A stretch of 40,679 nt of DNA from Deltaproteobacteria bacterium (GTDB lineage Bacteria > Myxococcota_A > UBA9042 > DTJE01), in NCBI GenBank assembly GCA_016875475.1, contig VGRB01000003.1:1-40679 (forward strand). The letters are read 5' to 3'. Each line of letters begins with the position of its first letter. Position 1 is the stretch's first letter. This document shows positions 18,306 to 21,549 of the stretch, piece after piece. The translations under genes were made by a program, and so were the position numbers. The notes beneath the pieces are model-generated. The model was given only the letters and a program-made list of their open reading frames with translations, was not told the origin of the DNA and searched no databases.

Positions 18306-18320
18306 TCCGGGGTAGAATCC
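18306..18320 (+). promoter_or_regulatory. Promoter element TCCGGGGTAGAATCC of the tandem-CNB gene
   Basis: Contains a -10-like TAGAAT (18313-18318) about 27 bp before the ATG at 18346. The same 15 bp occur in front of the CNB-PilT gene (21535-21549, minus strand), at about the same distance. No good -35 hexamer is visible in either copy. Confidence 0.55.
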
Positions 18321-18345
18321 GTGCGGCCGACACGGGGGTGCTGCG

Positions 18346-19650
18346 ATGGAATCCACGCCCGACCCGAGGGCGCTGCTCGCGGGGGTGCTGCCGATCCGGA
18401 TCGTGAACGAGGGCGAGGTCCTCTTCAGGGAGGGCGAGCCCGGCGACTCGATGGTGATCGTGTTCGCGGGCATGCTCCGGATCGAGGTCGGGGTGCGCGG
18501 CGGCGGCAGCGTCGAGATCGGCCAGGCCGGCCCGGGACAGGTGGTCGGCGAGATGACCTGCCTCGACCCGGCGCCGCGGTCCGCGACCGTCACGGCCGCG
18601 CTGGACTCGACGATCATCACGCTCGACCGCGGCACGCTGAACTCGCTTCGGACCTCGGCGCCCGCGGTGTTCACCGAGGTGCTCAAGGTCGTCATCGCGC
18701 AGGTTACGCACCGCGTGCGCGAGGCGGACGAGCGGGTCGGCGACCTCGCGGCCGGGCTCGGGGTGCCGCCCCCGGCCGCCGGCTCCCCGTCGCCGGGCGG
18801 ACCGCCCCCCGGACCGGCGCAGGCCCCGGCGGGGTTCTCCGCGACCGAGATGGCGCTCCTGGACGGCGCGCTCCCGCGCGAGTCCTTCGACGACGGGGGG
18901 GTCGTGTGCCGCGAGGGCGCGCCGGGCGGCTCGTGCTTCGTGCTGCGCTCGGGCGCGGTCGAGGTGCGCAAGGGCGTGGACGGCGGCGAGATCGTGCTGG
19001 CGGTCCTGGCCCCGGGCGCGATCATCGGCCAGATGGCCCTGGTGGACGAACGCCCGAGGTCCGCGACGGTCCGCTGCCGGGGGCCGGTGGACGTGCTCGT
19101 GCTCGACCGGGACCTGTTCGACCGCATGCTGTCCGCGCAGGCGCCGCTCGCGTTGAGGCTCCAGGAGCAGATCGCTATCTCCGGGATCCGGCAGCTCCGC
19201 AACGCGGACCGCTGGCTGTCGTCGCTGTCGGGCAGGCGCCGGACCCTGCCGATGGCAATCGTGTCGCCGCCGCGCCCGCCGGCCCCGGCCGCATCCACCG
19301 CACCGGCTTCGCGGTCCGCGCCCGCCGCGCGGCCCGCTCCGACCTCGGGACCGTCGACCACCCCGAAGCTCCCCGCGTTGCTCGCGGAGCACCCCGCTCC
19401 GGCTCCGAAGACGGAGGCGGCGCCCCTCCGGGCGGCGCCCCCCCGCGTCCCGGGCAGCCCCGTAGCGGCACCCGTCGGCTCCGAGGCGAGCGAGGCGCAG
19501 CGCGAGGCGCACCTGTTCATGTTCATGCGGACCGCGCTGAACGAGTGGGGGATGTCCACGGACGACGTCGATGGGGTGAAGGCGGTGGAGCCGCACGGGC
19601 ACATCAGCAAGGCCGAACTGAACGCCCGGAAGGGGAAGTGGACGGATTGA
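18346..19650 (+). CDS. Tandem cyclic-nucleotide-binding domain protein
   Basis: 434 residues. Two CNB (Crp-like) domains: about residues 12-125, with cassette VVGEMTCLDPAPRSATV, and about 160-275, with IIGQMALVDERPRSATV. Both keep the Arg that holds the cyclic phosphate; the second has Gln in place of the usual Glu. A Pro/Ala-rich linker (about 300-375) leads to a compact C-terminal segment (REAHLFMFMRTALNEWGMST to the end) that I do not recognise. No DNA-binding or catalytic domain is seen, so it is probably an adaptor that senses a cyclic nucleotide. It converges with the CNB-PilT gene (48-bp gap) and shares a promoter element with it. Confidence 0.83.
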   Translation: MESTPDPRALLAGVLPIRIVNEGEVLFREGEPGDSMVIVFAGMLRIEVGVRGGGSVEIGQAGPGQVVGEMTCLDPAPRSATVTAALDSTIITLDRGTLNSLRTSAPAVFTEVLKVVIAQVTHRVREADERVGDLAAGLGVPPPAAGSPSPGGPPPGPAQAPAGFSATEMALLDGALPRESFDDGGVVCREGAPGGSCFVLRSGAVEVRKGVDGGEIVLAVLAPGAIIGQMALVDERPRSATVRCRGPVDVLVLDRDLFDRMLSAQAPLALRLQEQIAISGIRQLRNADRWLSSLSGRRRTLPMAIVSPPRPPAPAASTAPASRSAPAARPAPTSGPSTTPKLPALLAEHPAPAPKTEAAPLRAAPPRVPGSPVAAPVGSEASEAQREAHLFMFMRTALNEWGMSTDDVDGVKAVEPHGHISKAELNARKGKWTD

Positions 19651-19697
19651 GGGGGGGGCGCGCGCGACCTCTCCGGCGCGTTACTCGCCCGAACCCG

Positions 19698-21512
19698 TCA
19701 CCCCCCGGCGGGCTGCGGCGCGATCCCCAGCCGGCGCGCCATGTCGGCCTTGTCGAGCGCGTGGGACATCGCCTCGTCGGCCTCGATCGCGCCGGACTTG
19801 ACCAGGCGCTCCAGCGAGGCGTTCAGGAAGCAGTTCCCGGCCGCGCCGCCCGTGCTCATGATGCTCGCGATCTGGTGGGTCTTGCCCTCGCGGACCAGGT
19901 TCGCGATCGCGGCGTTGACCACCATGACCTCGACCGCCGCCACCCGGCCGCCCCCGATCCGGCGGCACAATGCCTGTGAGACCACCCCCTTCAACACGTC
20001 GCCGAGCGTCGCGCGGACCTGGGCCTGCTGCTCGGCCGGGAACAGGTTCACGATGCGGTCCACCGTGCTGATCGCAGTCGAGGTGTGGAGCGTCCCGAAC
20101 ACGAGGTGCCCCGTGTTCGCGGTCTCGAGCGCGAGCGAGATGGTCTCGAGGTCGCGCATCTCGCCGACGAGCACGATGTCCGGGTCCTCGCGGAGCGCGG
20201 ACTTCAGCGCGCGCGAGAACGACTTCGTGTGCGTCCCGACCTCGCGCTGGTTCACGAGGCAGGCCGCGGACGCGTGCACGAACTCGACCGGGTCCTCCAG
20301 CGTGATGATGTGACCCTTGCGCTTCTTGTTCAGCGCGTCGATCATGGCCGCGAGCGTGGTGGACTTGCCGGAGCCGGTCGGACCGGTCACCAGGACCAGG
20401 CCCTTCGGGTACTCGCACAGCTTCATCACGACCGGCGGCAGGTCGAGCTTGTCGAGCGGGAGGACCTTCTCCGGGATCTGGCGCAGGACCGCGCACACGC
20501 CACGGATGTCGCGGAACAGGTTCACGCGGAAGCGGGCGAGCCCCGGCACGCCGTGCGCGAAGTCCAGATCCCCCCCGGACTCGAACTCCGCGCTCTGGTC
20601 GTCGTTCAACAGGGGCCGCATCATGTCGCGCACGTCGGACGGCCCGAGGGGCTCGCCGTCGGGGACCTCGCTCACCTGGCCGTCCACGCGCCAGCGCGGC
20701 TTCCCCCCCGCGGACAGGTGCAGATCGGAGGCGCCCTCCCGGACCATGCGGTACAGCAGCCGATCGAGACGGCCAGCGGCGCTTCCGGCCGCGCCAGGAG
20801 TCGTCGCCGGCGCGGGGTGCGCGGTCGCGTCGAGCACGCGGTCAGCGAGGGCCGCGGGGATGCGCACCGGGAGGATCCGGACGCCGGGCATCAGCCGGCG
20901 GACCGCCTCGAGCACCTGCGTGGACGGGTCCCGCACGAACCCCATTTCGAGCTGGTCGTCCTTCAGCCTGAGCGGCAGCACGCGGTGGTTCTGCAGGAAC
21001 GGCAGCGGCAGCCGCGACACGAGGTCCGGGTCCGGGTCGGCGACGTCGGACGCGACCAGCGGGACCTGGTGGGACGCGTCCGCGACCCGCTTGGCGAGCA
21101 CGCGGCAGACCGCGAGCCCGAACTCCGGGATCCGCCGGAACAGCTCGACGAACACGTCCTCGCCGAACCGGAGCGCGAGCACCTGCGTCTCGGCCACCAC
21201 GGTCGCGGTGCGCGGAGTGCCGAGGATCAGGCCCAGCTCGCCGATGACGTCGAGTTGCGCGAGGTGCGCGACCGTGCTCGCGGCCCCGCCGCCCGGCGGC
21301 TCGACCTGCACGACCGCCTCGCCCCTCATCAGGACGTAGAAGGCGTCGGACCGCTCGCCCTCGCGGACGATCGTCTCCTTCGGCTCGTACTGGACCGCCG
21401 TCGCCATGTGCGCGACGCGCTCGGCCCGCTCCTCGCCGAGCGGCTGGAAGAGCGGGGCGCGCACGAGCGCCGCCGCGACCGTCCGCGGGTCCGGGATCGG
21501 CACCTGCCGCAT
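19698..21512 (-). CDS. CNB domain - type II/IV secretion N-domain - PilT ATPase fusion
   Basis: 604 residues. N-terminal CNB domain (about 15-140, cassette DVIGELGLILGTPRTATVV with Glu and Arg kept). Then a GspE/PilB-type N-domain (about 150-225, LPLPFLQNHRVLPLRLKDDQLEMGFV). Then a PilT-like hexameric ATPase: SDLHLSAGGKPRWRVDG, Walker A GPTGSGKSTT, LVGEMRDLETISLALETANT, HTSTAISTVDRIVNLFP, and AAIANLVREGKTHQIASIM, the hallmark of PilT retraction ATPases. Plain PilT is about 350 residues, so the front half is extra and probably couples retraction to cAMP or cGMP. A GGAGGA site precedes the ATG, with a TAGAAT element 24 bp upstream. Confidence 0.9.
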   Translation of the reverse strand: MRQVPIPDPRTVAAALVRAPLFQPLGEERAERVAHMATAVQYEPKETIVREGERSDAFYVLMRGEAVVQVEPPGGGAASTVAHLAQLDVIGELGLILGTPRTATVVAETQVLALRFGEDVFVELFRRIPEFGLAVCRVLAKRVADASHQVPLVASDVADPDPDLVSRLPLPFLQNHRVLPLRLKDDQLEMGFVRDPSTQVLEAVRRLMPGVRILPVRIPAALADRVLDATAHPAPATTPGAAGSAAGRLDRLLYRMVREGASDLHLSAGGKPRWRVDGQVSEVPDGEPLGPSDVRDMMRPLLNDDQSAEFESGGDLDFAHGVPGLARFRVNLFRDIRGVCAVLRQIPEKVLPLDKLDLPPVVMKLCEYPKGLVLVTGPTGSGKSTTLAAMIDALNKKRKGHIITLEDPVEFVHASAACLVNQREVGTHTKSFSRALKSALREDPDIVLVGEMRDLETISLALETANTGHLVFGTLHTSTAISTVDRIVNLFPAEQQAQVRATLGDVLKGVVSQALCRRIGGGRVAAVEVMVVNAAIANLVREGKTHQIASIMSTGGAAGNCFLNASLERLVKSGAIEADEAMSHALDKADMARRLGIAPQPAGG

Positions 21513-21534
21513 GGTCGTCCTCCTGCGAGCAGGG

Positions 21535-21549
21535 GGATTCTACCCCGGA
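21535..21549 (-). promoter_or_regulatory. Promoter element TCCGGGGTAGAATCC of the CNB-PilT gene
   Basis: Fifteen bases identical to 18306-18320, here on the minus strand, with TAGAAT at 21537-21542. Transcription would start near 21530, leaving a leader of about 18 nt that holds the GGAGGA ribosome site. Confidence 0.55.

Follow-up and report, generated by a model that had tools for sequence, protein, structure and literature searches.

A conserved CNB-MshEN-PilT fusion in two bacterial phyla: a plausible cyclic-nucleotide-gated pilus-type motor

According to a 2024 review on the control of pilus assembly, cAMP exerts its effects via transcription and c-di-GMP acts on the extension motors directly (PMC11656802). 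The window analyzed here, 40,679 bp that make up an entire contig of a draft genome from the Myxococcota (5.67 Mb in 721 contigs), contains two convergent genes 47 bp apart, one (P2) encoding a PilT-type motor ATPase preceded by a CNB domain and an MshEN-type domain, the other (P1) a tandem-CNB protein (Table 1). P2 resembles the PilT/PilU retraction ATPases (TIGR01420; PilT4 of Geobacter metallireducens, 6ojx; PilT of Pseudomonas aeruginosa, 3jvu) in its complete motor with all ATPase motifs, in about 50% identity to these PilT proteins and in a matching fold. It differs from them in the extra N-terminal CNB and MshEN-type domains and in reading AIANLVRE for the classic PilT AIRNLIRE, and most of its clade has GN.LLN in place of the PilT motif GMQT.D. 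The MshE/PilB/GspE extension ATPases likewise link a nucleotide-messenger module to a pilus-type ATPase via an MshEN-type domain (PMC11656802); in P2, by contrast, the motor is of the PilT type, the c-di-GMP motif is absent and a CNB domain stands in front. In the PKA regulatory subunit, the SthK channel and the mycobacterial acetyltransferase Pat, a CNB domain with pocket Glu and Arg is fused to or controls an effector, as in P2, where the effector is instead a pilus-type motor ATPase. For Myxococcus xanthus CbpB, two cAMP-binding domains have been reported (Kimura et al. 2005, as cited in PMC10313047). P1 is likened to CbpB by description, as a tandem-CNB protein, and not by sequence, and PKA RI-alpha is among its best PDB matches; unlike CbpB, it is homologous to the CNB portion of a bacterial kinase and has Gln for Glu in its second CNB domain. 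Our literature search, with most subscription papers beyond reach, found no publication on a CNB-PilT protein or on direct cAMP/cGMP control of a pilus motor.

An earlier, sequence-only reading of the locus had described P2 as a CNB domain and a GspE-type N-domain joined to a complete PilT motor, with two further CNB domains in the convergent neighbor. Both descriptions held, with all domains above their curated cutoffs (the MshEN-type N-domain weakly) and PF00027 matching P1 twice. In P2, the CNB domain scored 58.7 bits with PF00027 (cutoff of 27.5; 62.9 bits in the genome search), the N-domain 29.1 bits with PF05157 (cutoff of 23.1) and the motor 444.7 bits with TIGR01420 PilT/PilU (cutoff of 319.1), while PF00437 matched residues 249 to 519. 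Walker A (GPTGSGKST), Asp box, Walker B and His box were all intact. An AlphaFold model of P2 from 18 sequences had a mean pLDDT of 80, and its predicted motor resembled PilT4 of Geobacter (TM score of 0.89 by target length); because the pTM of the model was 0.52, the position it gives the CNB domain relative to the motor is untrustworthy. A single-sequence structure prediction of P1 (mean pLDDT of 39.9) was set aside.

Table 1. Features of the P1-P2 locus, in window coordinates
Feature	Position	Strand	Basis
TCCGGGGTAGAATCC upstream of P1, probable extended -10 element, TAGAAT 33 bp before ATG	18306..18320	+	
P1, tandem CNB protein, 434 aa	18346..19650	+	PF00027 twice; homology to CNB half of C298 kinase
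P1 CNB-A, pocket Glu and Arg both present	18403..18648	+	PF00027, 65.2 bits
P1 CNB-B, Arg kept, Gln for Glu	18880..19134	+	PF00027, 78.9 bits; Gln recurs in homologues
P2, CNB-MshEN-PilT fusion, 604 aa	19698..21512	-	ORF; Pfam and NCBIfam; orthologues inspected full-length
P2 PilT ATPase region, residues 249-589, motifs intact	19746..20768	-	TIGR01420; motif table; PilT4 fold match
P2 MshEN-type N-domain, residues 149-216, without c-di-GMP-binding motif	20865..21068	-	PF05157
P2 CNB domain, residues 40-127, pocket G91 E92 R101 A103	21132..21395	-	PF00027; pocket conservation
TCCGGGGTAGAATCC upstream of P2, probable extended -10 element, TAGAAT 30 bp before ATG	21535..21549	-	

The CNB-MshEN-PilT fusion is a conserved architecture. 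Of 379 genomes sampled from the same phylum, about 41 have it, counted at E ≤ 1e-139, after which a gap extends to about 1e-127; a few weaker matches may also belong to it. Members inspected at full length carried CNB and MshEN-type domains ahead of PilT (Pfam check on two), and 13 of 40 genomes of a second phylum, the Riflebacteria, had matches spanning almost the entire query. The ATPase domains of the fusions formed one clade (SH-aLRT of 99) in a quick tree of 103 ATPase domains with long branches outside that clade. A CNB domain was present in 42 of the 43 rows of the clade, and the remaining sequence (L042) starts at a contig end. The search for other CNB-PilT fusions that the sequence-only reading had proposed has thus turned up a conserved subfamily in two phyla. 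Among 12 other sampled genomes of the window's own family there was no close match to P2, and the gene is therefore patchy in that family.

The ligand pocket ranks among the most conserved portions of the fusion's CNB domain. The pocket of P2 (GELGLILGTPRTATV) is near the PKA consensus and fits the cAMP/cGMP consensus (GE...PRTATV), with the Gly-Glu and Arg-x-Ala expected of a cAMP/cGMP-binding PF00027 domain. Thr after the pocket Arg is common in cGMP-binding CNB domains; P2 has it, which is not taken to favor cGMP over cAMP. In P1, the first pocket reads GEMTCLDPAPRSATV (GEM...PRSATV) and the second GQMALVDERPRSATV (GQM...PRSATV), the latter with Gln at the position where cAMP/cGMP-binding domains have Glu. 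The phosphate-binding Arg is accordingly kept in all three CNB domains, as had been read from the sequence, although the Gln had gone unmentioned. With duplicates removed, Myxococcota fusions outside one family, f6 (n = 21), retained Glu92 in 21, Arg101 in 20 and Ala103 in 21 sequences, with a median column conservation across the CNB region of only 0.45. All 11 Riflebacteria sequences had pocket Glu, Arg and Ala, a count that is less informative because these sequences are closely alike. For both phyla outside f6 combined, Glu was kept in 32/32, Arg in 31/32 and Ala in 32/32, whereas in f6, also of the Myxococcota (n = 18), Glu was found in 14, Arg in 16 and Ala in only 4. By these counts, most lineages preserve the pocket and one is losing it; since f6 retains the architecture while the pocket erodes, the CNB domain has some use without a normal pocket.

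This bears on an alternative in which the CNB domain has lost nucleotide sensing and serves as a structural or protein-docking module, for dimerization or for placement at the pilus base. We consider it unlikely, though it draws on two observations: f6 keeps the architecture with a damaged pocket even though class III cyclase domains are abundant in its genomes, and a sister fusion in the window genome, of CNB-MshEN with a GspE/PilB-type ATPase, is without pocket Glu and Arg. The gene for that second fusion is split across two contigs, the end of C120 (L012) breaking off in a CNB-MshEN gene and the start of C215 (L010) repeating the same 126 bp and continuing into the ATPase. Complete genes of this type are present in six genomes of the same family (L236-L241), in one of which the order CNB-MshEN-T2SSE was confirmed by Pfam. 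Against a structural module stands the near invariance of pocket Glu, Arg and Ala in the 32 two-phylum sequences outside f6, and the CNB domains of the Myxococcota outside f6 vary widely beyond the pocket, a pattern that would not be expected from a purely structural role. Missing cyclases were rejected as an explanation of the erosion, the cyclase matches of f6 genomes equaling or exceeding those of the rest.

The output of the motor was considered separately. The genome has eight PilT-family genes, seven besides P2, and one of these (on contig C122) sits between pilB and pilC in a canonical pilB-pilT-pilC cluster. Unlike that canonical PilT, P2 is not encoded with pilB and pilC, and both the C122 PilT and the other paralogues of the genome fall outside the fusion clade. 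Because seven other PilT-family genes exist, one of them between pilB and pilC, P2 is probably an accessory motor, special-purpose or condition-specific, with a putative role in retraction. Two of the paralogues have other N-termini (L007:679-2601 and L004:1369-2724), with HEAT repeats in one and an MshE-like RLGEILLDRG stretch in the other, and each adjoins another PilT gene. No pilus gene recurred beside the fusion across the neighborhoods examined, where neighbors were lineage-local only, and conserved gene neighborhood was dropped as a clue to function. Somewhat less probable again than a structural module is a CNB domain that does sense a cyclic nucleotide, on a motor serving a task other than twitching, such as another type IV filament, a secretion-like system or regulation of the platform. 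The number of PilT-family genes with the canonical PilT elsewhere, the orphan context in every neighborhood and the diverged AIRNLIRE and GMQT.D motifs are consistent with such a task (the first Arg of AIRNLIRE is absent throughout the fusion clade, and many of the remaining PilT-family sequences examined lack it too), but the motor scores far over the PilT/PilU cutoff and over any GspE/PilB model.

A source of messenger is predicted in the same genome, which has three PF00211 matches (class III cyclase domains). One of these proteins, on contig C242, also has a GAF domain and, read by eye, keeps an Asp pair that we take to be the metal ligands, a Lys/Asp pair that presumably selects adenine and an Asn/Arg pair that we take to be that of active adenylate cyclases; it is a predicted adenylate cyclase. 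Another protein (C306, L155:64-1947) joins a Ser/Thr kinase to a partial class III cyclase-like domain (36 bits). The MshEN motif RLGxx(L/V/I)(L/V/I)xxG(L/V/I)(L/V/I)xxxxLxxxLxxQ was absent from P2 and from all other fusions tested, and control by c-di-GMP via the MshEN-type domain was rejected on this basis. That the CNB domain binds a different ligand, for instance c-di-GMP, has precedents in the CNB domain of Clp regulators (PMC10333796) and in the c-di-GMP-binding MshEN domains of extension ATPases (PMC11656802), but is very improbable given the fit of the P2 pocket to the cAMP/cGMP consensus and the missing MshEN motif.

The sequence-only reading had also taken the identical 15 bp upstream of P1 and P2 as a sign of co-expression. 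The identity is exact, and P1 and P2 each have their own promoter; the inference of co-expression was not supported, near copies also preceding four other, apparently unrelated genes. At ≤1 mismatch, CCGGGGTAGAATCC occurred six times genome-wide, compared to none for the reversed control, every time 10 to 64 bp upstream of a possible ORF start. The products at the other four sites, assigned by eye, are a probable outer-membrane protein, a probable lipoprotein, a protein of unknown function and a 5'-nucleotidase-like protein, so the motif is not restricted to cyclic-nucleotide or pilus genes. TAGAAT was found 17 times in 440,679 bp of the genome; non-coding DNA and ORF 5' ends, together ~20% of the sequence by heuristic gene calls, hold 15 of these copies. 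The 15-mer appears to be an extended -10 element belonging to the general promoter type of the genome, the outcome that the earlier reading had itself named as speaking against its proposal, and because such an element also precedes unrelated genes, co-regulation is unsupported by it. P1 shares 41 to 47% identity with the C-terminal portion of a two-CNB Ser/Thr kinase (C298, L156:1-2604), and the P1-related forms of relatives, stand-alone as well as kinase, are encoded apart from the PilT fusion. P1 and P2 as a conserved pair were rejected, given that no listed P1 homologue in relatives adjoins the fusion and that none of the 12 same-family genomes has a close P2 match; P1 probably lies next to P2 by chance. 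A co-regulated two-gene cyclic-nucleotide system flagged by the 15-mer, for which the exact repeat and two adjacent, convergent genes with CNB domains could be cited, is therefore highly unlikely, the motif preceding four other genes, the listed P1 homologues lying apart from the fusion and the two genes being on opposite strands. Within the C298 kinase, the Ser/Thr kinase domain precedes the two CNB domains, PKG-like parts in a different order, and its relatives in the same family are L169, L170, L177 and L180; Gln replaces the pocket Glu in CNB-B of this type in the listed homologues. The C-terminal tail of P1 (residues 385-434, window 19498-19647; FMRTALNEWGMS...) comes after a Pro/Ala-rich linker and is shared with the C298 kinase (YMRAALREWGMS...). 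Elsewhere in the genome, a PP2C phosphatase is joined to a CNB domain (C89, L159:631-1908).

Cyclic-nucleotide control of the PilT-type ATPase is the best single explanation for P2 because the fusion is real, its architecture is conserved and, within the CNB domain, few parts are as well conserved as the pocket. Judged from sequence, ligand gating of such an ATPase is plausible, the arrangement suggests that a small messenger directly switches the motor, and gating by nucleotide is the leading but unproven explanation. From these data we infer nucleotide binding, gating, a hexamer, and retraction as the output. Six CNB domains would encircle the motor hexamer, and cAMP (possibly cGMP) from the cell's class III cyclases would enter the CNB pocket; the usual CNB hinge movement would be relayed through the degenerate MshEN-type N-domain and would alter how the motor hydrolyzes ATP or docks onto the pilus platform. 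The altered motor would then tune type IV pilus retraction, with P2 supplementing the canonical PilT, either as an accessory motor or under particular conditions. As a whole, a cyclic-nucleotide-tuned accessory PilT-type motor is the best explanation, held tentatively and at a little under an even chance. More doubtful is the broader proposal of a widespread class of PilT-type motors gated directly by cAMP/cGMP via a fused CNB domain which, with the sister CNB-PilB/GspE-type fusion, would constitute a post-translational switch on pilus motors, operated by cyclic mononucleotides. Testing the gating idea should be easy, as the pocket lies in a single domain whose key Arg is known. If true, cAMP could act quickly and post-translationally on pilus dynamics through a PilT-type motor that carries a cAMP/cGMP pocket of its own and is conserved in two phyla.
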